From NCBI GenBank assembly GCA_030427925.1, contig JAUICJ010000016.1:1-63289 (forward strand): a stretch of 63,289 nucleotides of DNA. The letters are read 5' to 3'. The DNA is from Bacteroidia bacterium (GTDB lineage Bacteria; Bacteroidota; Bacteroidia; Flavobacteriales_D; Sanyastnellaceae). The notes below the pieces were generated by a model. The model worked only from the letters and a program-made list of their open reading frames with translations. It searched no databases and was not told where the DNA came from. A program made the translations under genes and the position numbers. Positions 4,040-59,300 of this stretch are shown here, piece by piece (position 1 is the stretch's first letter; every line of letters starts with the position of its first letter).

Positions 4040-6241
4040 ATGATTTCAATGACACGCCTCTCCGCCCTGTTTGGGGCGGTGGTTCTTTTCGTCCAAGTTC
4101 AAGCTCAATGCACGGAACTCGATGTGGCGCTGTTTTCAGCGGCACCTGTTGAATCGGTGGCCCATTTGCGCCCCTTGACCCATCACCCGGAACAGACCGT
4201 TTTTCTGGAGCTTCACGGGGAGGCCATGCGGCAAGTCAGGGAGGCAAAACCGACGCAATTGACCACCGTGTTCCCCGGTCCAAATGGGGCCAAATGGGGC
4301 TTGGAGTGGGAACGCTTTTCGGCCTACAAACCCGACTTCAAAATCAGCCGCATGACACCGGCTGGGGCCATCGTGGAAGCGTATCAACCCCAACTTTTGA
4401 CGTACTCCTTGAAATCCAAAGAAGGGAGCGGAACCCTCGTTTTCCTCGAAAACGAAATCATGGGAACGTTCAGCGTTCGGGGGCAAGGCTACGAAATCAC
4501 CCGAACGGACGATGGGCACTACGCCCTGTTCCCGCTCGCCGATGCGAACCACGGCTTGACGTTTTCGTGTGGGGTGAGCGAGTTGGCGGAGCACCAGGAA
4601 GCGAAGATCAAGGAGCAGTCGGCTTCCAAGAGCGTCGTTGCGGAGTGCGTGGAGGTGGCGCTGGATGTGGACTTCCATACGTTTGGGTTGTTCGGCTCGG
4701 ATTGCGGGCCTGCGGTCGAGTGGGCGCTGGCGATGCTGGCCGGGGTGCACACGATTTACGATGCGGAGCTGGCGAACTTGATTGATTTGCAGGCGACGTA
4801 TGTGAACGTTTGGGAGGTGACGGACCCGTATGCGGCGGTGACCAACAACGGAGGGGGCGTGTTGGATGCGTTCCGGGTGGAGTGGGCGACGAATCCGGAT
4901 TTGGCTTTCATCCCGCGGGACATCACGCACCTGCTGACGCGGCGGACGAACACGGGCACCGGCGGCATCGCCTACCTCGATGTGACGTGCTACCAAGATT
5001 ATGCCTTCGGTTTGTCCTCGTACCTCAATGGCGGCAGCACCTACATCCCCGGAACGTACGCGTGGAACCTCAACGTGGTGGCGCACGAGCTCGGGCACAA
5101 CTTCGGGGCGAACCACACGCACTGGTGCGGCTGGAGCACGGGGCCCATCGACAACTGCTACGACATCGAAGGCAGCTGCAGCGGCTACACGAACAACGTG
5201 CAGGCGCAGGTGGGGACCATCATGAGCTATTGCCATGCCATCAGCGGCGGCTCGGTGAACCTGGTGTTCCACCCGACGGTGGAGAACGAGGCGCTGATTC
5301 CGACCATCAATGGAGACGGGTCCTGCTTCGGCGGGTGTGCGGCGTTCACTTCGAGCTGCGCGTACTACGGCTGCACGGATCCGACGGCGTGCAATTACTC
5401 AGCGGAAGCCATCGAGGACGACGGGTCATGCACCGTACTGGACAGCTGTGGGATTTGCGGCGGAGACGGGACGGCGTGCATTGGGTGCATGGATGAGTTG
5501 GCTTGCAATTACAGCGATTTGGTGACGATCGATGACGGGTCGTGTTACTACGGTCCGGCAGGAGGGCCGTGCGATTGCGGGGATGGGTTTACGCTTTCCG
5601 CTACGCTGTCGGGATCGGACACGCTGACCACGACGATGACGGGGAGCGGGTACATTTCGTCGTTGGAGGTGACCTTGGATTTCACCTATTTCAATGACCA
5701 AAGCTGGGCTTCCGAAGTGGTCCTGTTCATCGAATCACCGGACGGGCAGTGCATCGAAATCGGCGGTTACGAGAACGCCTTCGGTTGTGCGAACACGTAT
5801 TCGTGGCCCGCGAGCTGGGCGGTGGTTGGCAGCAATCAGTATTCCACGACCATTGCGCTGTTCGAGCCCATCGGCGGCATCGGCACGTGGACGTTGGGAC
5901 TGGGCAACGGCTGGGCCGGTTCAACGAACGCGGGCTACGTGCTCGACGTGACGCCGAACGCGTTCTGCGCGTTCGACTTGGTCGACGGCTGCACGGATGT
6001 GACGGCGTGCAACTACGATGCGGGGGCTACGGTGGACGATGGGACGTGCGTGCCTGCGCCGTGCGGCGGAGGCTGCCCCGGCGACTTGAATGGGGACGGG
6101 CAGGTGACGGTGGCAGATGTGCTGGTGCTGCTCGGGGATTTCGGTTGCGAGGGCAGCTGCGCGGGCGATGCGAACTCGGACGGCATGACGAACATCAGCG
6201 ACTTGTTGGTGTTGCTGTCGGCCTTCGGGGTGCCGTGTTGA
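4040..6241 (+). CDS. Secreted M12B (reprolysin-like) zinc metalloprotease with P domain and C-terminal dockerin-like pair
   Basis: A 733-residue protein; ATG 4049 is an alternative start. After the signal peptide and a pro-region comes a metzincin catalytic domain with the zinc motif [11 protein letters not shown] (H349, H353, H359) and a plausible Met-turn (TIMSYCH). Then follow two Cys-rich modules of the [15 protein letters not shown] type (about 444-505), a beta-rich domain resembling the proprotein-convertase P domain (about 515-645), a third [10 protein letters not shown] module (about 651) and a terminal pair of Ca-binding-like loops (679-733). The enzyme should be an extracellular protease. 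It lacks a recognisable T9SS type A or B C-terminal domain; the dockerin-like pair occupies that position. The gene faces, and nearly touches, the AlkD-like gene. Confidence 0.9.
6074..6238 (+). other. Cys-bracketed double dockerin-like C-terminal module (M12B protease)
   Basis: This stretch codes for two loops, [12 protein letters not shown] and [12 protein letters not shown]. Both carry D/N at Ca-binding positions 1, 3, 5 and 12, as in type I dockerins, and both are followed by a Leu-rich helix ending in FG. Cysteines open the module (CPGD), separate the loops (FGCEGSC) and close it (VPC). The same layout ends the proteins encoded at 50748-54440 and 54522-56378. Confidence 0.7.
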
Positions 6242-17741: not shown

Positions 17742-30471
<12,730 letters not shown>

Positions 30472-30566
30472 TGCAGGCGCGTATACGTTGGAAAACGGTG
30501 ACAAGTTGCGGTACCGACCCTCCATTTGCGCTGAGCAAATTTAGCCTTTTTCCAAGCGAATTCGCC

Positions 30567-38294: not shown

Positions 38295-41200
38295 ATGAAC
38301 CGTTTCATCCTCACGACAGCGGCCCTCCTTGCATGGTCAGCTGGCACCAGTCAGGCCCAGGATTGCGGCCTGTTCTTCAGCGAATACGCTGAGGGAAGCT
38401 CCTTTAATAAGTACGTGGAGCTCTACAATCCCACCGGATCAAGCATCGCGCTCGACGGGATTTCCATTGAAGTTTACATGAACGGCGCGACGGACGCGAG
38501 CAGTTCGATGGCCCTGACCGGCGCGCTCGGAGCGGGCGAAGTCGCGTTGTACGCGCACCCCTCAGCCGACGCGTCCATCCTGGCCCTCGCCACGGAAACG
38601 AACGGCTCGGTCATCAACTGGAATGGCAACGATGCGGTCCTCCTGCGCGGCGCTTCCGGTGAGGTCCTCGACGTGATCGGCGAAATCGGATCATCCGCAA
38701 ACTTCGCCGTCGCCGATGCCGACACGAAGGACAACACCCTGGTCCGCAAGCCGGAAGTCGGGCACGGCACCAGCGACTGGGCTTCGGCCGCGGGTACGGA
38801 CGCCGCCACTTCCGAGTGGGTGGCGCTGCCGAACAACGACTGGACGGACGCGGGCGTGCACACCTGCACGGCGGTTTGTGCTGCCACCCCCGCCAGCGAA
38901 TTCACGCTGCGCGTCTTGCACAACAACGACGGCGAATCCAGCCTCCTCGAAGTGGACCACTTCCTCGCCACGGTCAACGCGGAGCGCGCGGCCTCGGCAG
39001 CGGAAGGCGTTCCGACCATCATGTTGAGCTCCGGTGATAACTTCCTCGCGGGCTCGATTTTCACGTTGAGCCAAAACACGAACACCTATTACGACGCGAT
39101 GGCCCTCGATCGCATCGGGTACGACGCCCTGTGCCTCGGCAACCACGATTTCGACTTCGGCCCCGCTGTCCTCGCGGACTTCATCGAGAGCTACGAGTTG
39201 ACGACGCCTCCTTACTTGAGCGCGAACTTGGACTTCTCGACGGAGCCGGAGTTGGCCGGCCTCGCGGCTGCAGGCCGCATCTTGCCTTCGACCGTCTTGA
39301 ACGTGGAAGGGGAGCAAGTGGCCGTCATCGGGTTGACGACGCCGTTGTTGAATGGCATTTCGAGCCCGGGTTTGGTCGGCATCAACTCCGACATCGTGGG
39401 CGTGGTCCAAACCGAAGTGGACGCCTACGAAGCCGCTGGCATCAACAAGATCATCGTCATTTCGCACTTGCAATCGGTGACGAACGACATGGATTTGGCT
39501 GGAGCCTTGACCGGCGTCGACCTCATCATCGCAGGCGGGGGCGACCAATTGCTCACCAACTCCTTGTACGACACGGACTACGATGTCTACGGCAGCTACC
39601 CGCTCGCCACGACCGACGCCGACGGCGGCCCCGCTTACGTGGTCACCACCATCGGCAACTACCGCTTCCTCGGTAGCCTGAAGATGACCTTCGACGCGGA
39701 CGGCCACGTCACGAGCATCCACAGCGACGAGAGCGACGTCATCCAGGTCGACACGAGCGAGGGCGCCGCTTCCGATGCCGACATGTACACCAGCGTCGTG
39801 GCTCCCCTCGAAGCCGCGTTGTCCCAAACCCAAGTCATCGCGACCACGGAAATCGACTTCGATGTGCGCAAGAACATCATCCGCTCGCGCGAAACCGGCA
39901 TCGGCAACATCATCGCCGATGCGTACTTGAGCAAGGCCCGCGAATGGGCGCTCATGCAAGGCCACGATGTGCCCCAAATGGGCTTCGCCAACGGCGGCGG
40001 CATCCGCTCCAACACGATTTACCCCGCGGGCGAAATCACGGACCAAGACGCGGGCAACATCCTGCCGTTCCCGAACTACATCTCCATCATGGAGGATGTT
40101 CCCTCCTTCGTCATCAAGTACGTGTTCGAAAACGCTTACAGCCAAGTGAGCTTGGATGAAACGGGCGAACTCGTCGGTGACGATGGCCGCTTCGCGCACA
40201 TTGCGGACGCGGCGATCGTTTATGACATCGCGGGCGAAGCGTACACCCACGACGCATCGGGCACGCCGGTGGTCGAAGGCAGCCGCATCCTCAGCATGGT
40301 GCTCGCCGACGGCACCGTGGTCGTCGAAAACGGCGTGGCCGTGGAAGGCGTGACGGTCGACATCGCGTCGGTGGACTTCTCGTTGAACGGGGGCGACTTC
40401 TACCCGTTCGACCTCGCGGGTTCGCCGGTGTTGGTTTCGGAATTCGCAGCGCTCGACGCGTTCATTGACTACTTGACCACGGATTTGGGCGGACTCGTTG
40501 AGGCGGCTGAATACGTGCAGGATCCGGGCATGGATGCGGGCCGCATTCAAGTCCAAACCCCGACCTGCGACGACCCCACGGCCTGCACCTACTTGCAGGA
40601 CACGTTCTGCTTCTACGCGGACGACTGCGGCGTGTGCAACGGCGACGGCAGCACCTGCATCGAAGGGTGCACGAACGAATTGGCTTGCAACTACTACGAT
40701 TTGGCCGTGATCGACGACGGCTCGTGCATCGTCCCGACCCCGGGCAACCCCTGCCCCACCACGGTTTCAGTGACCGTTTCAAGCGGATCCGATGACGCGG
40801 AAGAGCAGCTCGACCCGTCGAACCCCTACTTCAGCGGTTACCCGTACATGGATTCCAGCGACCTCGAATTGACCTTCGATGGCGGCGAGCAAGAAGTGGG
40901 CATTCGCTTCGCATCGTTGGCGGTGCCCGCGGGCGCAACCATCACCGAGGCGTACATCCAATTCACGGCCGACGCTTCGCACGACGGTGAGACGAATTTG
41001 ACGGTCCTCGTGGAGAACAGCGTGAACCCCGCGACGTACTCGGCCGATGTGCTGAACGACGTGAGCAACCGCGATAAGTTCCAATTGCCGGTGGAATGGT
41101 CGAACGTGCCGGCGTGGACGGCGGGATTGGCTGGAATCGATCAGCGGACGCCGGATTTGGCCGCGCTCGTTCAGCACATCATCGACAGCGAAGGCTGGGC

Positions 41201-44200
41201 ATCGGGCAACCCGATCAACTTCATCATCACGGGAACGGGACGCCGCGAAGCCGAATCGTTCGAAAACGACGAAGCCGACGCTTCCCTCGCCCCGACCCTC
41301 GTCGTGAGCTACCAAGAACTGAGCGGTGAAGGCTGCACGGACAACGCGGCGAGCAACTACGACCCCGCAGCCGTCATCGACAACGGCACCTGCACGTACG
41401 AAGTGAGCTTCGCTGTGGCGACCGGTTCGGACGACATCGAAGAGACGTTGAACACGGACGCGACCTACTACGACGGCGGCTTGCCTTACATGGATTCAAG
41501 CGACCTCGAACTCGTCCAAGACGGCGATGCGAACCAGGCCGTCGGTGTGCGTTTCACGGGCTTGAACATTGCTCAAGGCCAAACCATCGCCTCCGCCTAC
41601 ATCCAGTTCGCGACCGACGAGGTGAGCACGGGCGCAGCGGCCATCGAAATCGCGATCCAAGACGCGGCCGACACGGAAACGTTCGACCCGAACACGGCCT
41701 TTGACGCAAGCGGACGCCCGACCCTCGGTGCGACCGTTTCATGGGACGTTCCGGAGTGGTTGACGGTGGGTGAAGCGGGCGCGGATCAGCGGACGCCGGA
41801 TTTGGCCAGCTTGCTCCAGGCCATCGTCGATCGTGCGGACTGGGCGCCGTACAACGCGGTGACGTTCATCCTCACCGGTTCGGGCACGCGGACGGCTGAA
41901 GCCTTCGAAGGCGATGCGGCCCTCGCTCCCCGCCTCGTCGTGGAAGTGCTCGGCACGCCGGCTTTGGCCCTCGGTTGCACCGACGAAGCAGCGACCAACT
42001 ACGATGCCAACGCCGGCATCGACGACGGCTCGTGCACCTACCTCGTGGCAGCGACCATCGCGGAAATCCAGGAAGGGCAGTTGACGGAAGCCTTTACGGG
42101 CACGCCGGTGACGACGTCCGGTGTGGTCACCTACGTGAACGGTTCGTTCTTCATTTTGCAAGACGGAACGGGCGCTTACTCGGCCATTTCCGCCTACACC
42201 AGCGGACACGGTTTGAGCGTGGGAGACGACGTGACGGTGACCGCTTCGGTGACCGAGTACAACGGTTTGACCGAGCTCATCAGCTTCACGGACATCACCG
42301 TCAACGGCACGGCCGCCCTCCCTGCAGCCGAAGTCCTCGGAACGGGCGAACTGAACGACGAGCAGTGGGAAAGCGTGCTCGTGGCCACCACGGGTGAAGT
42401 TTCCGCCGTGGCAAACCAGTACGGCGAATGGCTCTTGAACGATGGCTCGGGCGATGTGCAGGTTGACGATTACGATGTGTCGGTGCCTGCGGATTTGACC
42501 CTCGGTCAGGTCTATTACGTGGAAGGTCCGTTGACTTACGCCTTCGGTGCGTTCGAATTGCGTGCCTTGGTGCAAGAACTGCAGCCGGCGGTTTGCCAAC
42601 TCGGCGTGGTGTACGTCAGCGAGGCGCACACCAGCGGTGAGCCGAAGGACTACATCGAGCTGTACAACAGCGGCAGCGAGGACTGCTTGCTCACAGGTTT
42701 CCAATTGGACGACAGCGAAGAGTTGGCGGACTTGACGTTCGGCGACGTGGTCATCCCGGCGGGCGGCTTCTGGCTCGGCTACGAGGATGATCCGGAGTCG
42801 TTCACGAGCGGTTTGTCGAGCGGCGGTGACCTCGTGGTCTTTGCCGACCCGCAAGGCAACACGTTGATCGTGGAGGCCGGCCCGAGCATCGGCATCTTGT
42901 CGAAGAGCTTCGACGCGGAAGGCAACGGCTGCTACACCCTGCCCACGCCGGGTGCCGCAAACGACGCGTGCGGGGTGGTCGGCTGCACCGACGCCACGGC
43001 GTGCAATTTCAACAGCGAAGCGACCGCCGACGACGGATCGTGCACGTTCAGCGACGGCATCCTCGACTGCGACGGGGTTTGCGTCAACGATGCGGACGGT
43101 GACGGGATTTGTGACGAAAACGAAGCCCTCGAAGGCTGCACGGATCCGACGGCTGAGAACTACAACGCCCAAGCGAACTTGGACGACGGTTCTTGCTGGA
43201 CCAGCGACCTCGCCTTCACGGTGGCCGGCACGCACGGCACCGGCCAATTCGACGCCGGCGCCGCCGAGATCGTCGATTACCACGCCGGCACGCAGCGGTT
43301 GTTCTACGTCAACGCCTCGGCCCGGACGGTTGACGCCCTCGACATGAGCGACCCGAACAACTTGACGCTCGCCTTCACGTTCGACGCGACCGCGTATGGT
43401 GCCAGCGCGAACGGGCTCGTCGTCTTCGGCGATCACGTGGCCGTGGCGATCGAAGGCAATGCCATCGATGAGCAAGGCCAAATCGTCATCATCGACACCG
43501 ACGGCAACTTCGTCAGCAGCGCGCCCGCGGGCTACCTGCCCGATGCGGTCACCGTTTCGCACGATGGCACGACGCTCGCTGTGGCGAACGAAGGCCAGCC
43601 GAGCGAAGATTACACCTACGACCCGGTCGGCTCGACGACCCTCATCGACGTGACGAACCCGGCCAGCCCGGTCACCACGCAGGTCAGCTTCGCCGGGATT
43701 ACGGAGGAGATGTTGGACGAGTCGATCCGCATCTTTGGCCCGAACGCCAGCATCGAGCAAGACCTCGAGCCGGAATACAGCGCCTTCAGCGGCGACGACA
43801 GCAAGGTCTACGTGAGCTGCCAGGAGAACAACTGCATCATCACGATCGACGTGGCGAGCGGCCAGGTGGAGAACATTTGGGGCCTCGGCTTCAAGGACCA
43901 CGCGCTCGCGGGCAATGCGCTCGACGCTTCGAACCAGGACGACGCCATTAACATCGCGAACTGGCCGGTGAAGGGCGTGTTCATGCCGGACGCCATCCAC
44001 TCGTACGAGGTGGCAGGCCAAACCTACCTCGTCGCCGCCAACGAGGGCGACTCCCGCGACTACAGCGGCTACTCGGAGGAAGCGCGCGTGAAGGACGTGA
44101 CCCTCGACCCGACGGCGTTCCCGAACGCGGCGGAACTGCAGTTGCCGGAGAACCTGGGTCGCTTGCTCATCACGACGAGCATGGGCGACACGGACGGCGA

Positions 44201-45299
44201 CGGCGATTTCGACGAGCTGTACTCGTTCGGCGGTCGGTCGTTCACGATTTACACGGCGGAAGGGGATTTGGTCTACGACAGCGGCGACGATTTCGAACAG
44301 ATCCTGTCGGTGCTGCACCCGAACGACTTCAACTCCAACAACTCGGGCAACGACAGCTTCGACAACCGTTCGGACGACAAAGGCCCTGAGCCCGAAGGCA
44401 TTGACATCGGCGTCATCAACGGTCGCACCTACGCGTTCATCGGCCTCGAGCGCATGAGCGGCGTGATGATCTACGACATCACCGATCCGACGGCTCCGGT
44501 TTACCAGCGCTACCTCTCGAACCGCGACTTCGCCGTGGACAACAACGCGTTGCAACTCGACGCGGGCGCAGCCGGCGACCTCGGTCCGGAAGGCCTCGTG
44601 TTCATCCCTGAAACGGCTTCGCCCGATGGCATGCCATACCTCGTCACTTCAAACGAAATCTCGGGAACGGTGACGGCTTACGCCTTGACCAGCAGCGTGG
44701 TGGCTCCGGAAGTGGCGGTTTGCCAACTCGGCGTGGTGTACGTCAGCGAAGCGCACACCAGCGGTGACCCCGAAGACTACATCGAGCTCTACAACAGCGG
44801 TGCGGAAGACTGCTCGCTCGAAGGGTTCCAACTCGACGACAACACGGCGTTAACGGACTTGACGTTCGGTGACGTGGTCATCGCAGCAGGCGGCTACTGG
44901 CTTGGCTACGAAGACGCGGAGGGATCATTCGGCAGCGGGTTGTCGAGCGGCGGCGACATCGTGGTGCTCGGCAACGGACTCGGCGACCAGCTCGTCGTGA
45001 CCTTGGGCGGCAGCATCGGCGGCTACTCGCAGAGCTTCGACGCGGACGGCAACGGTTGCTACACGGAGCCCACGCCGGGCGCGGACAACGCGGCCTGTGA
45101 GGAAACCCAACTCGTGACGGTGGACGACCTCGGTTGCACGTACGCCGGTGCCTGCAACTTCAACCCGGACGCGTTGTTTGACGACGGGTCTTGCGTGTAC
45201 TTGCCGGGTGACTTGACCGGAAACGGCGTGGTGGACGCCCTCGACTTGCTCGACTTCTTGGCGTCTTACACTTCGACCTGTTCTGACATTGGATTCTGA
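38295..45299 (+). CDS. Giant secreted 5'-nucleotidase/metallophosphatase with choice-of-anchor I and lamin-tail domains
   Basis: A 2334-residue protein from ATG 38295, with a signal peptide ending SQAQ. In order: a lamin-tail domain (about 25-195); a calcineurin-like 5'-nucleotidase domain with LHNNDGES and LGNHDFDFG (about 205-450) and its C-terminal substrate domain with FANGGGIRSNT (to about 750); Cys-rich GCTNELACNY/DDGSC modules; two copies of a module containing MDSSDLEL and DQRTPDLA; an OB-fold-like region (about 1250-1427); lamin-tail; a choice-of-anchor I region (about 1640-2130); lamin-tail; a last GCTYAGACNF module; and a degenerate dockerin-like tail (DLTGNGVVDALD). It probably hydrolyses extracellular nucleotides for phosphate. 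No classic T9SS CTD is seen. Confidence 0.9.
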   Translation: MNRFILTTAALLAWSAGTSQAQDCGLFFSEYAEGSSFNKYVELYNPTGSSIALDGISIEVYMNGATDASSSMALTGALGAGEVALYAHPSADASILALATETNGSVINWNGNDAVLLRGASGEVLDVIGEIGSSANFAVADADTKDNTLVRKPEVGHGTSDWASAAGTDAATSEWVALPNNDWTDAGVHTCTAVCAATPASEFTLRVLHNNDGESSLLEVDHFLATVNAERAASAAEGVPTIMLSSGDNFLAGSIFTLSQNTNTYYDAMALDRIGYDALCLGNHDFDFGPAVLADFIESYELTTPPYLSANLDFSTEPELAGLAAAGRILPSTVLNVEGEQVAVIGLTTPLLNGISSPGLVGINSDIVGVVQTEVDAYEAAGINKIIVISHLQSVTNDMDLAGALTGVDLIIAGGGDQLLTNSLYDTDYDVYGSYPLATTDADGGPAYVVTTIGNYRFLGSLKMTFDADGHVTSIHSDESDVIQVDTSEGAASDADMYTSVVAPLEAALSQTQVIATTEIDFDVRKNIIRSRETGIGNIIADAYLSKAREWALMQGHDVPQMGFANGGGIRSNTIYPAGEITDQDAGNILPFPNYISIMEDVPSFVIKYVFENAYSQVSLDETGELVGDDGRFAHIADAAIVYDIAGEAYTHDASGTPVVEGSRILSMVLADGTVVVENGVAVEGVTVDIASVDFSLNGGDFYPFDLAGSPVLVSEFAALDAFIDYLTTDLGGLVEAAEYVQDPGMDAGRIQVQTPTCDDPTACTYLQDTFCFYADDCGVCNGDGSTCIEGCTNELACNYYDLAVIDDGSCIVPTPGNPCPTTVSVTVSSGSDDAEEQLDPSNPYFSGYPYMDSSDLELTFDGGEQEVGIRFASLAVPAGATITEAYIQFTADASHDGETNLTVLVENSVNPATYSADVLNDVSNRDKFQLPVEWSNVPAWTAGLAGIDQRTPDLAALVQHIIDSEGWASGNPINFIITGTGRREAESFENDEADASLAPTLVVSYQELSGEGCTDNAASNYDPAAVIDNGTCTYEVSFAVATGSDDIEETLNTDATYYDGGLPYMDSSDLELVQDGDANQAVGVRFTGLNIAQGQTIASAYIQFATDEVSTGAAAIEIAIQDAADTETFDPNTAFDASGRPTLGATVSWDVPEWLTVGEAGADQRTPDLASLLQAIVDRADWAPYNAVTFILTGSGTRTAEAFEGDAALAPRLVVEVLGTPALALGCTDEAATNYDANAGIDDGSCTYLVAATIAEIQEGQLTEAFTGTPVTTSGVVTYVNGSFFILQDGTGAYSAISAYTSGHGLSVGDDVTVTASVTEYNGLTELISFTDITVNGTAALPAAEVLGTGELNDEQWESVLVATTGEVSAVANQYGEWLLNDGSGDVQVDDYDVSVPADLTLGQVYYVEGPLTYAFGAFELRALVQELQPAVCQLGVVYVSEAHTSGEPKDYIELYNSGSEDCLLTGFQLDDSEELADLTFGDVVIPAGGFWLGYEDDPESFTSGLSSGGDLVVFADPQGNTLIVEAGPSIGILSKSFDAEGNGCYTLPTPGAANDACGVVGCTDATACNFNSEATADDGSCTFSDGILDCDGVCVNDADGDGICDENEALEGCTDPTAENYNAQANLDDGSCWTSDLAFTVAGTHGTGQFDAGAAEIVDYHAGTQRLFYVNASARTVDALDMSDPNNLTLAFTFDATAYGASANGLVVFGDHVAVAIEGNAIDEQGQIVIIDTDGNFVSSAPAGYLPDAVTVSHDGTTLAVANEGQPSEDYTYDPVGSTTLIDVTNPASPVTTQVSFAGITEEMLDESIRIFGPNASIEQDLEPEYSAFSGDDSKVYVSCQENNCIITIDVASGQVENIWGLGFKDHALAGNALDASNQDDAINIANWPVKGVFMPDAIHSYEVAGQTYLVAANEGDSRDYSGYSEEARVKDVTLDPTAFPNAAELQLPENLGRLLITTSMGDTDGDGDFDELYSFGGRSFTIYTAEGDLVYDSGDDFEQILSVLHPNDFNSNNSGNDSFDNRSDDKGPEPEGIDIGVINGRTYAFIGLERMSGVMIYDITDPTAPVYQRYLSNRDFAVDNNALQLDAGAAGDLGPEGLVFIPETASPDGMPYLVTSNEISGTVTAYALTSSVVAPEVAVCQLGVVYVSEAHTSGDPEDYIELYNSGAEDCSLEGFQLDDNTALTDLTFGDVVIAAGGYWLGYEDAEGSFGSGLSSGGDIVVLGNGLGDQLVVTLGGSIGGYSQSFDADGNGCYTEPTPGADNAACEETQLVTVDDLGCTYAGACNFNPDALFDDGSCVYLPGDLTGNGVVDALDLLDFLASYTSTCSDIGF

Positions 45300-50747: not shown

Positions 50748-53700
50748 TCAGCAAGGCAATCCGAACACAGCGAGGACCAAAAGGAAATCGCTGATGCCGA
50801 CCCACTCGTCGCCATTCAGGTCGGTGGTGCACGCCCCAGTGCAGCCGAATTCGCTCAAGATGTGCAGGACATCGGAGATGGTGACCAAGCCATCGGCATT
50901 GAAGTCCCCGGGGCACGCCTCAGCGCAGTCGGCGGCAACGGTGAAGGTCGTGCTGTACGACCACGATGAAGGCGGGTACGGGACTGCTTGGAGGTACAAC
51001 TGAAACAGCTCGCCCGTCCCCGGCTCCACCCCGTCGACCACCCAAGCGAAGCTGCCGGTATTCTCCACCACGCCCAACGAGAACCACGCGGCATTCAAGG
51101 TCGCGTTGATCACACTCAACGCCACCTCGCCGCTGGGATCGCCGCCCGTCCACGAAACGAGCACGGTATCGCCCAAACAAACTTCCGACACCAGCGGCTC
51201 AAACGACAACTCCGGGTACGCGCACGTTCCGTCATCGTAAGTCGCCAACGGATTGAAATTCAACGCTCCGGAATCCGTGCACCCCAGCACATCGTCCGCG
51301 TAATAGCACGAACCGTCATCGACCTCAGCGGCCGGGTCGTGGTTCAAGGCACTCGGGTCGGTGCACCCGAAAATGGGGTACGTGCACGAGCCGTCGTCCG
51401 CGAGGGCGTTCGGGTCGAAATTGAATGCCCCCTCATCCGTACAGCCCAGGAATTCCTCGCACGGCGCGTTAACCCCCACGAGGCCACTCGCGCCGCCCTC
51501 TCCCGAAGCGATCTCCTCGGAATTGAGCAGCAGGGACCACGAGATTTCGGCGAGGTAGGCACCGCCACCGGCCGTGTAGGTGTAGCAGCCGGTGGGAAGG
51601 CAGAATTCGGTTTGGCCTTCATCGCCCGACGGGAGGGTAAAACTGGCCTGCGAAACGCCGAGGACATCGAAAAAGGTCAACTCGTTGCCGTTCCAGCCGT
51701 CGCCGTACCCGTCGTACAGGTTCAACGTCAACGCAGCATCATCGCCGCAGTCCAGCGGGTACGTGCACGTCCCATCGTCGTCCACGGCAAACGGATTGTA
51801 ATTCAGCGCCGCCTCGTCGGTGCACCCATACGTGGCGTAGAGTTGACCCGCCGCGATGGGTTCGCCCGGCTTCGCATTGTACGCGTAATCCAGCAGGGTC
51901 ACTGCGTCTCCGGACTCGCTGACCTCGAGGCGCATCCAGCCGTAATGGAAGCGCTCCGCGATGGTGAATTTTACGCCGGCGAAAGCGATTTGGCCTTGCC
52001 AATCGGGGTAAGCCGGGGAGGAAATGACCAGCTGCGTCTCGAGCTCCGTGGTGTACTCCCAATTGCCGGCTGCCCCGATGGAATCCCCGGCTTGCAGCAG
52101 CGCGAGGTTTGTGGAACCGGGCGCGCACAGGCCCGATTTGTGGTACGTTTCCAAGCGGAAGTGGTCGTTGATGTACCACAGGCCAAAATCCGCATCCCCC
52201 ACCCCCCACGTGAACCACTTCCACTCCAAGCCCCCGCTCGACACGGAGATGCTCCCTTCCGGCGCGACGTCCTCGTGCACGATGCCGTACGGATCGGCAA
52301 AATCCAGGTTCAGGGACTGCGTCAAATCCATCCCGTCCGCACCGCCTTCGATGAGCGCGGGGTCCCAAGCCAGCACCACGTTCACGTCGGCCGCGTCGCT
52401 GTGTTGCAGCGCGCTGCCCGCAAAGGACACCTCGACCTGCGTAGCGTTCAAGCGCTGCACCTGCACGGTCAGGCCCTCCGGCACGTTGGTCGCCTCGACG
52501 CCTTCGCCCGGGCCGACTGCGTCGAACTCCGCCCAGGTCGCCCCGTGCAGCTCCACGAGCCGGTGGGAACCGATGCTGCCCGTGTTGGCGGCCGATTCGT
52601 GGAAGGTCGTTTGGGTGTAGGCGAGCACGGGGCCTTGCACCTCCCCCGCTTCGATGGGGGCGCCCGGCGCCTCGTTGTACGCCATGTCGAGGGCGTAATA
52701 GTGGTCGCCCGATTCGCTCACGCGCAGCCGAATCCAGCCGTAATGCGCGTTGCCGCCGCGCTGAAATTCCACGCCGACGAAAGCGGTTTGGCCGTTCCAA
52801 TCGGTGTAATCCGGGTTGGACAAGTCGAGCTGGTCGGGGTACCAGGGACCGGGCTCGGTGATGTCCGAATCGGGGCCGATGAGCGTGCCGGCGGGAAGCG
52901 GCGTCAGCTGGGAAGTTCCGGGATTGCAGATGGCGCCGTTACCGTAGGTCTCGAGTTTGATTTGGTCCAAATCGTAGTGGAAAAAGCCAAAATCCGCCGC
53001 CTCCGCCCCCATCGTGAACCACGTCCACCGGCGGCCCTCGAAAAAGTTGTGCGCGTCCTCCACCAAATCCACGAACACCACCTCATACGGATCCCGGAAC
53101 TCCAGCGCCAAATCGGTCTTCGACGGGTTGTAGAGGTCGGCCAAGGCCACGCCGTCGAACGGCGCTGCGGTGAAGTGAATGCCGATGGAATCCACTGAAT
53201 TCGCGGCGGCGTGGGCGGCGACTTGCCCGCTGAGCTGGAGCAGGGCGTGGGTGGCATCGGTGACCACCACCGACAACGTCAGGCCTTCGGGCACGTTGCT
53301 CGTCGTGAAATCCACCCCGGGGGCGAGGGGGCCGGTGGTGGCGAACTGCAGGTCGAGGAGCGCGATCGGGATTTGGCTTTCCACGGAGCCGTCGTTCGCA
53401 TCCGATTCCTCGAACGCCCCTTTGAGGTAGACCAAACGCGGCAAGAACTCCTCCTGCAGGAACACCGACGCCTGGTTCTCCGGGGTCCACAGGTTGTTCC
53501 GCCCCCCGACGTCGGAGCACATCGCCGCCACCATGCGCGCCCTCTGGCCCGTGGTGAACATGCTCGAACAGTTCGCGTAGTCCATGAAGTTTTGGACGTT
53601 GTCGAGGGTGCCGCACGAGGCGGCGTCCAGCGCGCAGCCCCAGTTGCCGATGGTGTTGGGCGTGTCTTCGACCTCGTCGTCGTGGAGGCACGCTTCGGCG

Positions 53701-54440
53701 GATTGGTGCGCGGTTTGGTCCCCCCAAGTGTGCTTCAAATTCGCCCAGTGCCCCACCTCGTGCGTGAGGATCTTGTAATGGGTCCAAACCGCGGTTTCCG
53801 TCCGCCCGACCGCCCAGTACGAAGCCACAATCCCGTCGTAAATCGAAGCGCTCCCCTCCACGTCCGCGGGATAAAAAGCAAAGGCCGATCCGTTTCCGCC
53901 ATTCGAGGAATGGACCACCCAAATGTTCAGGTAGCGCGTGGGATCCCACTGGATCAGCTCCTTCAGCCCGATGTTGCTCCCATTGTAGGTGTGGTGCGAT
54001 TGGAGGCGGTTGATGCCCGTGGTCGGCTCGCCGTTGGGCGCAAAATCCGCCAGCCGAAAGGACATCCCCACATCGGCGACCAGGTCCACGAAGCTCGCAT
54101 GCACGTCGGCGAGCTCGGGGTTCGTGGCCGAAAAATCCTCGTTGAGCTGGACCACCGCTTCGTGGATTTGGGCATCGGAGATGTTCTCCACCCCACCGTC
54201 GTGGACGACGTGGAACACGACCGGAATCACCAGTTCGGAGGGCAAATCATCCAAGGCTTCCATCGAAAACGCCTGGGTGAAATTCGACAAGAACTGCGCG
54301 CGCGCGGATTGCTCCGCCTGCCATTCCGGGTGCTCGTCGTGCATGCGCTGGGTTTGCTCGGCATGCTCGCAGCGGTGCTGGGCTTGAGCGGTGAGCGCGG
54401 CGAAAAGGAGCAACAAAAACGGGAGGCGGTGGATGTTCAT
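50748..54440 (-). CDS. Secreted M43 (pappalysin-like) metalloprotease with C-terminal dockerin-like pair
   Basis: A 1230-residue protein from ATG 54440 (MNIHRLPFLLLLFAALTAQAQ). The catalytic domain has VIPVVFHVVHDGG, HEVGHWANLKHTWGD (zinc ligands starting near residue 227) and a Met-turn near NFMDYANCSSMFT; this extended HExxHxxxxxHTWGD motif is the M43/cytophagalysin signature. Two copies of a beta-rich module (each with DPYxxVxxD, WTWFTMGAEAADFGF-like and HYGWIRLRVSESGD) follow, then several GCTDEAALNYNP/DDGTC modules, an Ig-like domain and a Cys-bracketed double dockerin-like end. It is predicted to be an extracellular protease. It lacks a T9SS CTD and lies 81 bases downstream of the cohesin-like gene on the same strand. 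Confidence 0.92.
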   Translation of the reverse strand: MNIHRLPFLLLLFAALTAQAQHRCEHAEQTQRMHDEHPEWQAEQSARAQFLSNFTQAFSMEALDDLPSELVIPVVFHVVHDGGVENISDAQIHEAVVQLNEDFSATNPELADVHASFVDLVADVGMSFRLADFAPNGEPTTGINRLQSHHTYNGSNIGLKELIQWDPTRYLNIWVVHSSNGGNGSAFAFYPADVEGSASIYDGIVASYWAVGRTETAVWTHYKILTHEVGHWANLKHTWGDQTAHQSAEACLHDDEVEDTPNTIGNWGCALDAASCGTLDNVQNFMDYANCSSMFTTGQRARMVAAMCSDVGGRNNLWTPENQASVFLQEEFLPRLVYLKGAFEESDANDGSVESQIPIALLDLQFATTGPLAPGVDFTTSNVPEGLTLSVVVTDATHALLQLSGQVAAHAAANSVDSIGIHFTAAPFDGVALADLYNPSKTDLALEFRDPYEVVFVDLVEDAHNFFEGRRWTWFTMGAEAADFGFFHYDLDQIKLETYGNGAICNPGTSQLTPLPAGTLIGPDSDITEPGPWYPDQLDLSNPDYTDWNGQTAFVGVEFQRGGNAHYGWIRLRVSESGDHYYALDMAYNEAPGAPIEAGEVQGPVLAYTQTTFHESAANTGSIGSHRLVELHGATWAEFDAVGPGEGVEATNVPEGLTVQVQRLNATQVEVSFAGSALQHSDAADVNVVLAWDPALIEGGADGMDLTQSLNLDFADPYGIVHEDVAPEGSISVSSGGLEWKWFTWGVGDADFGLWYINDHFRLETYHKSGLCAPGSTNLALLQAGDSIGAAGNWEYTTELETQLVISSPAYPDWQGQIAFAGVKFTIAERFHYGWMRLEVSESGDAVTLLDYAYNAKPGEPIAAGQLYATYGCTDEAALNYNPFAVDDDGTCTYPLDCGDDAALTLNLYDGYGDGWNGNELTFFDVLGVSQASFTLPSGDEGQTEFCLPTGCYTYTAGGGAYLAEISWSLLLNSEEIASGEGGASGLVGVNAPCEEFLGCTDEGAFNFDPNALADDGSCTYPIFGCTDPSALNHDPAAEVDDGSCYYADDVLGCTDSGALNFNPLATYDDGTCAYPELSFEPLVSEVCLGDTVLVSWTGGDPSGEVALSVINATLNAAWFSLGVVENTGSFAWVVDGVEPGTGELFQLYLQAVPYPPSSWSYSTTFTVAADCAEACPGDFNADGLVTISDVLHILSEFGCTGACTTDLNGDEWVGISDFLLVLAVFGLPC
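50751..50915 (-). other. Cys-bracketed double dockerin-like C-terminal module (M43 protease)
   Basis: This codes for DFNADGLVTISD and DLNGDEWVGISD loops, each followed by a Leu-rich helix ending FG. CPGD opens the module, FGCTGAC separates the loops and LPC closes it. It is the same layout as in the M12B protease and the cohesin-like protein. Confidence 0.7.
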
Positions 54441-54521: not shown

Positions 54522-56378
54522 TCAGTCGCAGCAGTTTTGGGTGCCAAAACCCGCAAGCAACACCGTAAAGTCCGCCATCGACACGATGCCATCTCCGTTG
54601 AAATCCCCGGGACAATCGCCCACGCACCCGAAGTACGTCAGGAAGGCCAACATGTCGCGCAAATCCACCGTGCAATCGCCGTCCACGTCCGCGGTGCACG
54701 CCCCCGGCTGGATGCCAAAGGTCGCCTCGGTGGCCTCCACCTCGTACGGCACGAACCCCGGTCCCACCACCTCATACGGCGTCGCGCCTCCGCCCAGCCC
54801 CACGGTCGTCGAATCCGCCCCGCCGATGACGTCCCACGTCAGGCTGAACAAGGAATCCCCCGCCGCAATCGCCACGCCTTCGAGCGTCGGGTCGAACCAC
54901 GAGCACAGGACTTGGTCGGGTCCACCCGACGCGTTGCCCGCGTTGAAATTCGGGAGGACGCCCGCTTCGGCCGTTGCGAACGCGAGCTGCGCGGCGTCGA
55001 AGGGCAGGCTGGTTTGGAAGGAGAGCAACGCCGCGGGTTGGGTGGCGACGACGTGCACCGTCAAGGCGCCCGCCGCGTAGCTGCCTTCGAGGACGAAACC
55101 GACCGAGGGCTCCGTCACGGTGAGCGCTCCGGGTTCGAAGGACGCGTCGAAGAGGACGCCTTCAGGGGTCGCCACTTCGGCGAAGCCGGTCCAGGTGAGC
55201 GGGTAGACACCGGCGGGTGCGGTCGCGTGCAGTTCGAGGAGGACCGGGCCTTCCACGCCGTCGAGCGCGGGGTCGAACCAGGAGATGGTGGCGGTTTCGC
55301 CGTCGGTGGACCAGTTCGCCGGGCCGAAACCAGTGAGGGCGGGCGCGGTCACGTCGGTCAGGGTGAGGCCGGAAAGGCCGATGGTGGCTTGGAAGCTGCC
55401 GATAGGCGCGTCGGCGCTCGCCGCGATGGGCAGCGTGAACGGGCTGCCGGGGGCGGCTTCGAGGGTCGGCAGGGTGAACGTGGCCGTCGGGGTGGCGGCC
55501 GGAACGATGGGCAGGATCACGCCTTCGTACGTGGCTGGGCGGGGGGCCAAATCCGCCCCGATCACTTCCCGCAACACCGGGAAATCACTGAATGCCAGTG
55601 CGGTGGGGCCGCTGGGGGCGAGGACCGTGAATTCGAGCTCGAACAGGGTGGTGCCGTCGGGGACCGTCAAGGAGGACAGGCCGTCGTCGTACCAGGAATA
55701 CGCCACGGCGCCGTCGGTGGCCGTCCAGTTCAGTCCCGGGAGGGCAGCGGGGGCGATGCCGACGAGTTCCAGCGCGGCCGGGTCGTAGTTCAGGCTGCCC
55801 TGGCAGGACAGCACGTCCTCGAAGCCCGCCGCCCGGACGGGCAGGGTGAACGCCGCCCCCGGGGTCAGTGCCAGCGAATCCAGGGAGAACGCCACCGTCC
55901 CGGTCGCCACGGGCGGGTCTTCGGGGTCCGTCCAGCCGCTCGTCGGTGCGATGGGCGGCCCCACCGTCACCGGGATGACCGAAAAGCCCGGACCGATGAA
56001 TTCGATCGGCGTCGGCGCGTTCACCAGGGCCACGGACGTCGGGGTTGCCGTCGAATCGACCCACGAGAAGTGGAGCGTGAGGAGGGACGCGGGCGGGGTT
56101 TGGCCCGCCAATGCCGCGTCATACCACGAGAACACCACGGTTCCTGCCGCCGGCTCCCCCACCGCCAACGAAGGCCAAGCCAACGCCGACGCGCTGTCCA
56201 ACGCCAACACCGCCGGGTCGTACGCCACCGTGCCTTGTGCGCTCAACAACGAGGGCATGCCGGCCACCGCCAGCGTCACCGCCAGCGGCTGCCCCTCCGG
56301 CGTCGCCACGAGCACGGCCCCTTGACCGCTCGCCCACGACGCCCACAAAACCAGCACCGCCGTCCACAAACGCATCAT
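54522..56378 (-). CDS. Scaffoldin-like protein: four cohesin-like modules and a double dockerin-like end
   Basis: A 618-residue protein; the ATG pair 56378/56375 overlaps the stop of the upstream giant gene, and the signal peptide is MMRLWTAVLVLWASWASGQ. Four modules of about 130-140 residues follow (about 22-140, 158-285, 299-420, 426-555). Each begins with a beta strand pattern like LTPGAAFTLPVRA, has a YDPAAL-type loop, and carries FSWYDAAL, YSWYDDGL, ISWFDPAL or CSWFDPTL at nearly even spacing. Two end in a clear IGPGF or VGPGF strand; a third has a weaker version. This matches type I cohesins in order and size. Residues 560-618 form the dockerin-like pair. It could organise partner proteins at the cell surface; cohesin identity is inferred from pattern, not from a profile search. 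Confidence 0.75.
   Translation of the reverse strand: MMRLWTAVLVLWASWASGQGAVLVATPEGQPLAVTLAVAGMPSLLSAQGTVAYDPAVLALDSASALAWPSLAVGEPAAGTVVFSWYDAALAGQTPPASLLTLHFSWVDSTATPTSVALVNAPTPIEFIGPGFSVIPVTVGPPIAPTSGWTDPEDPPVATGTVAFSLDSLALTPGAAFTLPVRAAGFEDVLSCQGSLNYDPAALELVGIAPAALPGLNWTATDGAVAYSWYDDGLSSLTVPDGTTLFELEFTVLAPSGPTALAFSDFPVLREVIGADLAPRPATYEGVILPIVPAATPTATFTLPTLEAAPGSPFTLPIAASADAPIGSFQATIGLSGLTLTDVTAPALTGFGPANWSTDGETATISWFDPALDGVEGPVLLELHATAPAGVYPLTWTGFAEVATPEGVLFDASFEPGALTVTEPSVGFVLEGSYAAGALTVHVVATQPAALLSFQTSLPFDAAQLAFATAEAGVLPNFNAGNASGGPDQVLCSWFDPTLEGVAIAAGDSLFSLTWDVIGGADSTTVGLGGGATPYEVVGPGFVPYEVEATEATFGIQPGACTADVDGDCTVDLRDMLAFLTYFGCVGDCPGDFNGDGIVSMADFTVLLAGFGTQNCCD
54525..54698 (-). other. Cys-bracketed double dockerin-like C-terminal module (cohesin-like protein)
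   Basis: This encodes CTADVDGDCTVDLRD and CPGDFNGDGIVSMAD loops with FGCVGDC between them and a NCC end. The second loop has all Ca-binding positions; in the first loop position 5 is Asp and the following residue Cys. Confidence 0.65.
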
Positions 56379-59300
56379 CGGACCACGTGCACTTGGATGG
56401 ACCACGCGCCTTCCGAGGTCGTCGCGCGGACCACATACGTTCCCGCGGCCGGCATCGCCTCGACCACGGCGCCCTCTGCAGTGCGCCGCCACGCCACATC
56501 GACCAACCGGCCGGCTGCATCGCGCACGTCAAGTCCCGTCAAGCCCGGCAAGGCCAAGGTGAAGCCGTCCGATGTCGGGTTGGGCCATGCCGCGAGCGCA
56601 CGCTCCATTTCCTCCACCTGCAGCGCCTCTTGCACGCCCGACCAAACCGGCCGGCTGACTGCCAAGTCCACGCCGCACGCCTCACCCGGCACGCCCACCG
56701 ACGTCAATCCGAGTTCGTCCCACGAAGCCCCTTCCGGCACGTCGAACACCCAAGTGACCAACGAGCCGCTGAACTCCGTTTCCGAAGCGAATTGGAACGG
56801 GAAGCGCCCCGAGGCGTGCATCGCCGGATTCGTCCGCATCGCCGCATCGTGCAGCGTCCAGTCGACGAGGGCCCAGTCTGCCGGCCACGCCACCGTGAAC
56901 TGCAAGCCACGCAGCACGTCCTCCGTAGCCAGGGTGACCGCGTGCAGCCCGTTGCCGAGCGCCGTCGCCGTCGCGCCCAACGGCAGGTCGAGTTCGTTGA
57001 CGGGCATGCCGCCCATCGGGGCCCAGCTGCCATCGACGTCCCCGCGCTTCACCGCCGTGAAGTCCACCACGGCCCCGTCCTGCAACGTGGGCACGAGCAC
57101 TTCCTCGAGGAAGCCATACGGATTCGTCGGGTCGGCGAACTGGACCTCGTCGGGAACGAGGACCCAATCGTCCACGCCCGGATAGGTCGCCGCCTGCTGC
57201 AAGATGACCTGTTGCATGAGGAGCAGGTCGAGCGTCGTCACTGTTCCCGAACCGTTCACGTCCGCCGCCAGCAGTTGCCAGGGCGTGGAGAGCGGCTGCC
57301 CGAGGATTTGGCCTTGCGCAAGCAGAATGTCCAGCGTCGTCACCCCGTTGTCCGCGGGATCATCGGTCGCCTTCATCGCGCTCACCCAGTAGCTGTTGCC
57401 CTCGTTCAAAGCCAAACCGAATCCGCCACTCGCGTCGCTCACCGCATTCGCCACCGCGCCGGTCGCCGCCGCCTGAGCGGTCACCTCGACCCCTTCAACC
57501 GGGAAACCCTGCGGCGTGAGGACCCCGCCCGACAGCCCACCGGTTCCTCCCGAAACCGGCCACACCTCCACCTCCGCGTACAGCGTATCCGCCGCGCACC
57601 CCAGCGCACTCGCGGTCACTGCATACACCCCCGACATGGCCTCCGTCGCTGGCGCCAGCTCCACGTTGGCGGTCGTCGCCTCGAAGCCATCCGGTCCGCT
57701 CCACGTCACGTTCGCTCCCGCACCCGGGCTCACCGTCAACTGCAGCGCACTGCCCTCAAACACAGGACTGTTCGTCGCCAGCCCCACCAACGTCGGCACC
57801 GGCAACACCTCCACGGTCACCGGTTCGGAAACCGCCGTGCAGCCCCCCACCGTCGCCGTAGCATGGTACGTCCCCGCCTCCGTCACCACCACCTGCTCCG
57901 CGCCGACCCCCAACTCCGGCCAGTACACCGAACCGGCTCCCAACGTCGCCGTGAGCACCACCGTTTCCCCCTCGCAGACCACCGACGGCCCGTCGAATCC
58001 AATCACCGGTGCGGGCGGCGTCGGCGCCACCGTCACCGTCACGCTCGCCATCCCCACGCATCCCCCCGTCGTCCCCGTCACCTCATACGTCCCGGACGCC
58101 GAAACCGGCAGCTCCGCGCCCGTCGCGCCCGTCGACCACGCCCAGTCCTGAGCGCCCGAAGCGGTCAGCACCAACGCATCCCCCGAACACGCCTCGAAGC
58201 TCCCCGTCGAACTCGCAATCTCCACGTCCACCCCAGCGGTCGTCGTGAAGTACCAATCCGACACGTCGTAGTTGTTCGAATTCGAGTAGGCCCGCACCCG
58301 CACCGACGCTTGGCCCATCGGCTCGTTCGGTAAGGTCCACGTGTACGTTCGGTCCGGCGCACTCACGTTCGTCGCGATCGAAATCCAAGCGGACGCCGGC
58401 GTCGGCCGGTAGTCGATGTTGAACGCGTTGTTCGTCGAAGGATCCTCCCAAACCAACGTCACCTCCGAACAGCCCGCAAACGCCTCCCCGCCATTGGGGC
58501 TCAACACGTTGATCGTCGGCTCGTACGCCGTCACATCGAATGGCAGCACCGACTCGGACGACTTGCACGCGTTGTTGGCATCCTCCACGCGCACCATCGC
58601 AAACGCGCTCGCACCGAAGGGCACCGACCAGGCGTAGCTGCCGCTCAGCGTGTAATGGTTCTCCACGATCGTCGTCCAGCTGCCGCCCGCATCCAAGCTG
58701 TAGGCCAAATCCCAAAAGTTCGAAGTCAACGTGTCATTCCACGTGATCGCCACTTCGCTCCCGGCCGTCGCGACCCCGCCGTACGTTAAGCTCGTCAGCT
58801 CCACCGTGGGGCTGATGGTGAACACGTTGTCGCTCACATCGAACTTGGACGGCGCATTCGCATCCCGCACCCGCACGAGCGCGGTCGTTGATGGCGTGTT
58901 GGGAATCAACCAGTTGTACGAAATGAAACCGCTGCCGTTCACGTAATCCGACGCGATGGCCGTCCACGTGTCGCCCCCGTCCGTCGAGTAATCGATGTCG
59001 TAGACTCCTGAAGTTCCGCCCGCGAACCAATCGATGTTCGTGTAGGTGCAGGAACGGTAGTCGGCGGCGAAGGTGTTTTGGGTTTCCAAAGCGATCGGCG
59101 GCGCAATGGTGAATCCGATGTCGCTGACGTCGGCCACCACGTTGTTGCCCGCGTCGCGAATCCGCACGAGGGCGAGCGACGTGGGATCGTCCGGAACGAG
59201 CCACTCGAACACCCCGTCGTTGAGGGTGCTCGCGGAAATGACCTGCCACGTTGCGCCGTTGTCGGTGGAGTAATCGATGGCCACGTAGGGCGTCGACAGG

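Follow-up and report, generated by a model that had tools for sequence, protein, structure and literature searches.

A predicted four-cohesin protein and an apparent dockerin-fold sorting tail in a Bacteroidia genome

A dockerin is commonly taken for the plug of a cohesin, and cohesins and dockerins outside cellulosomes were reportedly reviewed by Peer et al. in 2009. The present analysis concerns a stretch of 63,289 nucleotides from a Bacteroidia bacterium (contig JAUICJ010000016.1 of assembly GCA_030427925.1), referred to below as the window, and one gene on it, whose product, denoted P0002, carries four cohesin-like modules and a dockerin-like tail at its C-terminus. Judged from profiles and predicted folds, P0002 is a real multi-cohesin protein; the more surprising part is the tail, which appears to be a sorting domain. 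In a bacterial family with cohesins in few of its genomes, a tail of dockerin fold closes dozens of proteins per genome, and homologous enzymes carry either this tail or a known secretion signal. If this is true, dockerin matches in environmental genomes should not be read as evidence of cellulosome-like complexes, and one can test for a second way to mark proteins for the Bacteroidota surface. The operon of a giant repeat protein and a multi-cohesin protein, to which P0002 belongs, offers a concrete candidate for a non-cellulosomal cohesin–dockerin pair that can be assayed.

The modules of P0002 resemble the cellulosomal type I cohesins (CipC, 1g1k/2vn5; CipA, 1aoh/1ohz) in their profile, their predicted fold, their tandem repetition and the polar residues at the contact positions. 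They are unlike them in their low identity (10–19%), in an SW[YF]D motif, in the lack of any cellulose-binding Pfam match at an expectation value (E) of 1, and in their origin from Bacteroidota. In a survey of cellulosome-displaying bacteria, the terms Bacteroidota and Bacteroidetes are absent from the text (PMC11557425).

According to the accessible part of its description, Candidatus Stygibacter (Cloacimonadota) has a proposed scaffoldin-like protein with a C-terminal domain of the type used by the type IX secretion system (T9SS), together with dockerin-bearing enzymes (PMC8542988). The likeness to the present case lies in the tandem cohesins of a non-catalytic secreted protein and in the C-terminal dockerins on peptidases and glycoside hydrolases; the T9SS-type end of that scaffoldin is also found in P0007–P0010, which are relatives of P0002 from another family (f9). 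The Stygibacter protein has 3,755 residues with CBM2/CBM3 in that account, whereas P0002 has 618 residues, no such module and a dockerin-like tail as its end. The hypothesis of a peptide-degrading 'planctosome' in freshwater Planctomycetes, as far as its source is accessible, involves M12B peptidases and an LTD protein (PMC6461901). It shares with the present genome the cohesin and dockerin parts, M12B reprolysin-like peptidases, an LTD protein and the absence of a link with cellulose. However, the adaptor proposed there consists of one dockerin, a hyaline repeat and one cohesin, whereas P0002 has four cohesins and stands beside a giant repeat protein, and, unlike in the planctosome idea, the tails described here do not track cohesins across their own family, although the parts are present.

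The nearest named relative of the tail is the GC-type dockerin (NF041540), which likewise has two loops, cysteines and a C-terminal place. At E 0.01, this profile reaches 11 of the 46 proteins of the genome that end in the tail; 2 of its 29 matches in the genome pass the cut-off, and one-loop versions are common here. The T9SS type A domain (TIGR04183), whose fold is not known to be related to that of dockerins, occupies the same C-terminal slot on homologous proteins. A literature search, outside which most subscription papers lay, returned no paper with 'GC-type dockerin' and no paper combining dockerin, type IX secretion and Flavobacteria; judged by their titles, none of the papers was about such a dockerin tail.

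Tandem modules and tail of P0002

The gene of P0002 lies on the minus strand; its 618 codons begin with the ATG at 56378, and the stop codon that follows them has its last base at 54522. The original prediction, made from the letters of the window, had placed the gene correctly and had named no strand. The N-terminus of P0002 is signal-peptide-like, and an alternative GTG start is possible at 56492. As shown in Table 1, four modules of about 127–141 residues follow one another in tandem. The SW[YF]D motif is found at residues 84, 228, 366 and 493, where the preceding residue is F, Y, I and C, respectively; when residues 19–560 were shuffled, the motif was present even once in 63 of 20,000 shuffles. 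Pair-by-pair BLASTP gave E values of 8e-12 (modules 1–2), 1e-11 (1–4), 9e-10 (2–3), 2e-8 (2–4), 2e-6 (3–4) and 0.026 (1–3). On these comparisons, the modules are a true four-fold repeat, which bears out the four modules of the original prediction. That prediction had also described GPGF ends, clearly in two modules and weakly in a third; those of modules 1 and 4 stand, and modules 2 and 3 have IGADL and FDASF instead.

The Pfam profile Cohesin (PF00963) matched the whole of P0002 with 52.2 bits, compared to a gathering cut-off of 24.1. When a profile of the four modules alone was compared with the PDB at E 10, 12 sequences were matched, 11 of which are cohesins (best 1g1k, E 1e-4) and the twelfth a designed repeat protein (E 0.56). 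Two of the 11 are labelled 'Endoglucanase', but they are cohesin chains by their entry titles. With 11 relatives added to the profile, 20 of 23 matches were cohesins and the other three were designed Ig-like proteins.

Structure prediction of the cohesins covered module 2. The AlphaFold2 model, obtained from a 15-row alignment, reached a predicted local distance difference test score (pLDDT) of 93.5 and a predicted template-modelling score (pTM) of 0.86. Its best 25 Foldseek matches were all cohesin or cellulosomal scaffoldin entries, and its comparison with solved type I cohesins by VIA-align gave, for 6kgc_A, a Z score of 17.8 and a root-mean-square deviation (rmsd) of 1.8 over 132 residues; the identity to the structure-aligned cohesins was 10–19%. 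By profile, by the predicted fold of module 2 and by the match to solved structures, the modules are cohesins of the type I family, and the original assignment is supported, the PF00963 match being above the cut-off and the module 2 prediction having the cohesin jelly-roll.

As reported in the accessible part of the source, Asn37 and Asp39 of a cohesin of C. thermocellum touch the Ser/Thr motif of the dockerin (PMC5772552). In a weak alignment (E 0.11), Ser191 and Gln193 of P0002 fall on Asn (residue 37) and Asp (residue 39) of the 1aoh chain. The Ser and the Gln of this Ser-x-Gln pair are invariant across the four modules of P0002; in the modules of the operon type as a whole, a count by eye found the Gln in 12 of 12 and the Ser in 10 of 12.

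The two dockerin-like loops that had been noticed at the C-terminus are present, with a predicted dockerin fold. On the tail of P0002, NF041540 scored 22.2 bits, which does not pass its cut-off of 29, and PF00404 scored 17.9 bits on P0002 (cut-off 22.9) and 25.7 in the genome scan, which adds in-frame neighbours. The tail profile, which itself includes the tail of P0002, matched it with E 4.3e-21. In a profile of 25 two-loop tails, four cysteines and four aspartates are invariant, and disulfides may close each half of the tail. The AlphaFold2 model of the P0002 tail (32 rows) reached a pLDDT of 89.1 and a pTM of 0.72, and its best 24 Foldseek matches were cohesin–dockerin or scaffoldin entries. 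The best of them, 2y3n_B, was the sole one below 0.001 (E 2.8e-4; rmsd 1.2 over 53 columns; Z 9.0). Because the model matches such entries, the tail is, by its predicted fold, a two-loop dockerin.

P0002 had no match to TIGR04183 at E 1, and its Pfam matches at E 1 included no catalytic and no cellulose-binding family. Read from the sequence, P0002 is a non-catalytic protein with several cohesins and, given its signal-peptide-like start, an exported one, as would be expected of a scaffoldin. Relatives of P0002 were absent from the collection of named genomes searched.

Spread of the tail and its place on homologous proteins

The samples compared were the source genome (G000; 2.95 megabases (Mb), 99.5% complete), the 114 genomes of its own family, and 399 genomes of its order; all per-genome counts of tail and T9SS matches across the family and the order are lower bounds, to be read as 'at least'. 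The Bacteroidota origin proposed for the window is supported by the T9SS sorting domains of the genome and by the five closest named relatives of P0003, an M43 peptidase of the window, which are Flavobacteriales metagenome-assembled genomes (MAGs).

In the source genome, the tail profile gave 53 matches at E 0.01 in 50 reading frames, and 46 of the 50 frames end in the tail, the match lying 0–7 residues ahead of the stop. The four frames left out are L201, L210 and L227, in which a half-loop is internal, and L230, a weak match that is probably due to chance; the fetched sequence stops within L201 and L227. In L210, the internal half-dockerin loop precedes a GHSAG stretch, which looks esterase-like by eye. 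Two loops were scored in 14 of the 46 tails and one loop in 31, and 1 tail was unscored. A hydrophobic N-terminal segment was found in 43 of the 46 tail proteins, compared to 58 of 420 internal control stretches. Across the family, 29 of the 29 best tail matches that were fetched end 1–4 residues ahead of the stop.

The 46 tail proteins, four of which are encoded within the window (Table 1) and 42 elsewhere in the genome, include reprolysin-like proteins (4), LTD proteins (3), ExeM nuclease models (3), choice-of-anchor B (2), choice-of-anchor I (1), GH16 (1) and alpha-amylase (1), where one protein may count more than once. The choice-of-anchor families are named for their varied C-terminal anchors, which fits the tail as a sorting domain. 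The original prediction saw no glycoside hydrolase and expected proteases and adhesins as cargo. Its peptidases do bear the tail, but the GH16 and alpha-amylase domains on tail proteins elsewhere in the genome correct its first part.

On homologous proteins, the tail is found where others carry a T9SS signal. The relatives P0007–P0010 of f9 have T9SS type A C-termini at the place where P0002 has its tail. The same comparison was made for M43 peptidases, for which 40 loci were taken and 5 broken or truncated ones dropped (L290, L291, L293, L306 and L317), leaving 11 with the tail and 24 others. The tail class was assigned by profile for 10 loci and by eye for L304, and in L322 the sequence taken stops shortly before the end of the frame; the T9SS class was assigned by a PNP-type pattern for 21 loci and by eye for L296, L321 and L325. 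When these classes were checked by profile over the last 300 residues, TIGR04183 matched 0 of the 12 tail-bearing peptidases, P0003 included, and 24 of the 24 others; NF041540 matched 1 of the 12 at E 0.01. Since the homologues carry a T9SS type A domain where the tail stands, the tail fills the slot of the T9SS signal. A protein of a Flavobacteriales MAG (L333:5761-10908), 57% identical to P0003 over 1197 residues, has a different end by eye; it has no match to TIGR04183, and its end presumably resembles a variant T9SS domain. Over 67 of the 114 family genomes, picked by the authors, the number of tails per Mb (from capped counts, hence lower bounds) and that of first-look T9SS candidates per Mb gave a Spearman coefficient of −0.44, with relatedness not corrected. 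T9SS type A domains are found in all 114 genomes of the family.

Cohesins are far less widespread. P0002 is the sole cohesin gene that PF00963 found in the source genome, and 8 of 60 related genomes, the source genome counted, have a cohesin above the cut-off. In 13 frames from cohesin-positive genomes, inspected by eye, mostly a single cohesin match lies within a longer protein; several carry dockerin loops and a T9SS-like end on the same chain, and one short frame seemed spurious. Of the 399 genomes, 9 were matched by the four-module profile; matches to several modules came solely from the source genome and from G247 and G286, which belong to one genus of f9.

The tail was matched at E 0.01 in 111 of the 114 family genomes, some with one or two matches only. 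At the stricter E 1e-8, which misses many one-loop tails, it was matched in 105 of the 399 genomes of the order, 98 of which are in the own family, and the other seven hold one or two; among the multi-cohesin genomes, G286 has two such matches and G247 is not among the 105, provided that these 399 genomes are the ones searched with the four-module profile. When the family was split at 19 tail matches into 81 rich and 33 poor genomes (the latter with at most 15), a cohesin over the PF00963 cut-off was found in 2 of the 81 rich genomes (the source genome and one other) and in 3 of the 33 poor ones (Fisher p 0.14). At E 0.1, the numbers were 6 of 81 and 13 of 33 (Fisher p 1e-4, relatedness not corrected). 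Tail-rich genomes without a cohesin thus number 79 of 81 over the cut-off and 75 of 81 at E 0.1; therefore, the tails seem not to need a cohesin of a known kind. They seem independent of known cohesins by this count, in which divergent cohesins could be missed. The dockerin-bearing proteins do not track a cohesin protein, as those of a scaffoldin system would.

These results bear on the original idea that P0002 gathers dockerin-bearing proteins. In its favour, the tail closes many secreted proteins, and PF00963 finds one cohesin gene in the genome. The use of the tails of the proteins starting at 4040 and 50748 as handles for cargo is weakened by the cohesin-free 79 of 81 rich genomes, by the 31 one-loop tails among 46 and by the T9SS slot. 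The further suggestion that the tail of P0002 chains its own copies was rejected: by eye, the residues at the recognition positions of its loops do not form a matching pair, and the tails do not track cohesins.

The operon with the giant repeat protein and the candidate explanations

The stop codon of the giant repeat protein P0004 overlaps the start codon of P0002 in an ATGA, through which the two genes may be translationally coupled. With 33.2 bits, the dockerin of P0004 scores highest among the PF00404 matches in the genome; the next best, a tail, has 23.0 bits. Long near-identical duplicated segments were seen in P0004 by eye. In G247 and G286, two cohesin genes, encoding one and three modules, come after a gene for a giant repeat protein, so that in all 3 of the 399 genomes with more than one module match the cohesin genes lie behind a giant gene. 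The one-cohesin and three-cohesin genes stand in a row at L250:9409-15176 and L251:4017-9523, and the three-cohesin protein of f9 continues, by eye, with many short repeats of the form GDS...GCDS.

P0004 and P0006, the giant protein of G247, are 36% identical over 1889 residues, and their dockerin regions align with E 1e-38; P0002 and P0008 match with E 6e-28. P0004 and P0006 both have a two-loop dockerin in which each loop bears TTLD; behind it lies a cohesin-like module, and both chains close with a T9SS or T9SS-like domain. The four-module profile matches the cohesin-like module of P0006, at the place homologous to that of P0004, with E 8.9e-8, and the T9SS sorting domain of P0006 scores 35.2 bits (cut-off 27). 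P0011 of G286 resembles both proteins by eye, and TTLD is nearly kept in both of its loops. P0004 carries an internal canonical dockerin and a probable T9SS type A signal, which sets it apart from the proteins starting at 4040 and 50748. That a gene for several cohesins neighbours one for a canonical dockerin in two families is the strongest pointer to a candidate partner. P0004, named originally as the 56375 protein, is the best such candidate.

The explanation that we favour, at slightly less than an even chance, is that P0002 is a secreted cohesin adaptor whose cohesins serve TTLD dockerins of the P0004 type and whose tail serves export or anchoring. P0004 would be exported by the T9SS, and the cohesins of P0002 would bind its TTLD-type dockerin at the cell surface; since four cohesins would bind such dockerins, one P0002 could bundle up to four giant proteins there. 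To judge from the homologues, P0002 would itself be exported and held by its own tail, not plugged into its own cohesins, and this tail would be the family's own C-terminal export or anchoring domain in place of the T9SS type A domain. For the tail in general, we tentatively propose, with confidence that again falls just short of even, that the Cys-flanked dockerin, either in full or reduced to one half of about 27 residues, makes up a so far unrecognised class of C-terminal domains for export or surface sorting in this family of Flavobacteriales. It would be evolutionarily interchangeable with the T9SS type A domain and independent of cohesins, and the cohesins of P0002 would serve a different, canonical dockerin.

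Several results weigh against this adaptor explanation. Because one tail alone also passes PF00404 (23.0 bits), the status of the P0004 dockerin as the only canonical one depends on its score and on the TTLD residues seen by eye, and the TIGR04183 score of P0004 (20.4 bits) does not reach 23, its cut-off. Because G247 and G286 share one genus, the operon amounts to two independent cases only. The cohesin-like module of P0004 could bind the dockerin of its own chain: in P0004 and, by eye, in several relatives, such a module and dockerin loops are found on one polypeptide, which points to intramolecular pairing. Module 2 of P0008, like that of P0009, has lost the Ser and the acidic residue of SW[YF]D. 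The contrast between rich and poor genomes over the Pfam cut-off (p 0.14) is not significant, and the tail-rich genomes may hide divergent cohesins, because PF00963 misses even module 4 of P0002.

A scaffoldin in the usual sense, with the cohesins of P0002 holding the tail-bearing peptidases, nucleases and others and its own tail chaining copies or plugging into another cohesin, is considered improbable. The predicted dockerin fold of the tail (2y3n_B), the single cohesin gene of the genome and the 14 two-loop tails would suit it, as would the reprolysins and LTD proteins among the tail proteins, which are kinds named in the accessible part of the planctosome proposal (PMC6461901). However, such a role sits poorly with 79 of 81 tail-rich genomes that lack a cohesin over the cut-off, with cohesins at E 0.1 that are commoner in tail-poor genomes, with 31 of 46 tails that have one loop, and with multi-cohesin relatives in genomes that have two tails (G286) or none listed (G247). 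In this one lineage, a scaffoldin for tail-bearing peptidases is possible, although less likely than the adaptor. The Ser-x-Gln pair at the dockerin-contact positions, mostly kept in two families, and the TTLD of both loops of the neighbouring P0004 dockerin, kept in P0006 and by eye nearly kept in P0011, make it unlikely, if less so than the scaffoldin, that the modules act as Ig-like structural spacers in an adhesin without binding any dockerin, with the operon reflecting a joint use in adhesion. This possibility draws on the existence of cohesin-fold modules without cellulosomes (2xdh of Archaeoglobus was among the matches, Z 16.9) and on the identity of 10–19% to the compared cohesins. As for the tail alone, and compatibly with any of these accounts of the modules, export or attachment might proceed by a pathway unrelated to the T9SS, with the slot shared by chance. 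The persistence of T9SS type A domains in 114 of 114 genomes, so that both endings coexist, is consistent with such a pathway, but the two endings exclude each other at the same place in homologous peptidases, in the operon of f9, T9SS domains occupy the place that the tail has in P0002, and the densities per Mb are negatively correlated (Spearman −0.44); we regard it as somewhat unlikely, though the least so of the three.

Features of the window

Table 1. Positions of P0002, its neighbours and the other tail-bearing genes in the window.
Feature	Position	Strand	Basis
P0002, four-cohesin secreted protein, 618 residues, C-terminal dockerin-like tail	54522..56378	minus	sequence, PF00963, module alignment
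Cohesin module 1 of P0002, residues 19-146	55941..56324	minus	PF00963 14.6 bits, below cut-off; module homology
Cohesin module 2 of P0002, residues 157-297, best PF00963 match (30 bits)	55488..55910	minus	profile, model, structure matches
Cohesin module 3 of P0002, residues 298-426	55101..55487	minus	PF00963 11.9 bits, below cut-off; module homology
Cohesin module 4 of P0002, residues 426-562	54693..55103	minus	homology to modules 1-3; no PF00963 match of its own
Two-loop Cys-flanked dockerin-like tail of P0002, residues 560-618 (59 residues)	54525..54701	minus	profiles, predicted fold
P0004, giant repeat protein (reelin/BNR/NGGE repeats), at least 2304 residues, 5' end cut by contig end	56375..63289	minus	profiles, alignment
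Canonical two-loop dockerin of P0004, TTLD in both loops	57203..57355	minus	PF00404 33.2 bits
Cohesin-like module of P0004, behind the dockerin; approximate limits	56642..57028	minus	placed by eye after the corresponding region of P0006
ATGA overlap of P0004 stop and P0002 start codon	56375..56378	minus	sequence
P0003, M43 peptidase, two-loop tail at 50751-50915	50748..54440	minus	profiles
P0005, reprolysin-like M12 peptidase, two-loop tail at 6074-6238	4040..6241	plus	profiles
LTD / 5'-nucleotidase / choice-of-anchor I protein, one-loop tail at 45204-45281	38295..45299	plus	tail profile

P0003 was considered as a third member of the conserved operon and rejected: in the flanks, as fetched, of 6 of 6 loci with close relatives of P0003 (L328–L333, of which L331 is a short contig), no frame of at least 200 residues matched P0002 or P0004. 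A promoter-like site lies between P0002 and P0003, ahead of P0003. Three kinds of C-terminus are seen within one window, namely a CHU_C-type T9SS domain, the probable T9SS type A domain of P0004 and the dockerin-like tail, as in P0005. The first of these belongs to a PKD protein of 3137 residues at 21112-30525, where the CHU_C-type T9SS domain scores 21.1 bits, below the cut-off of 27.

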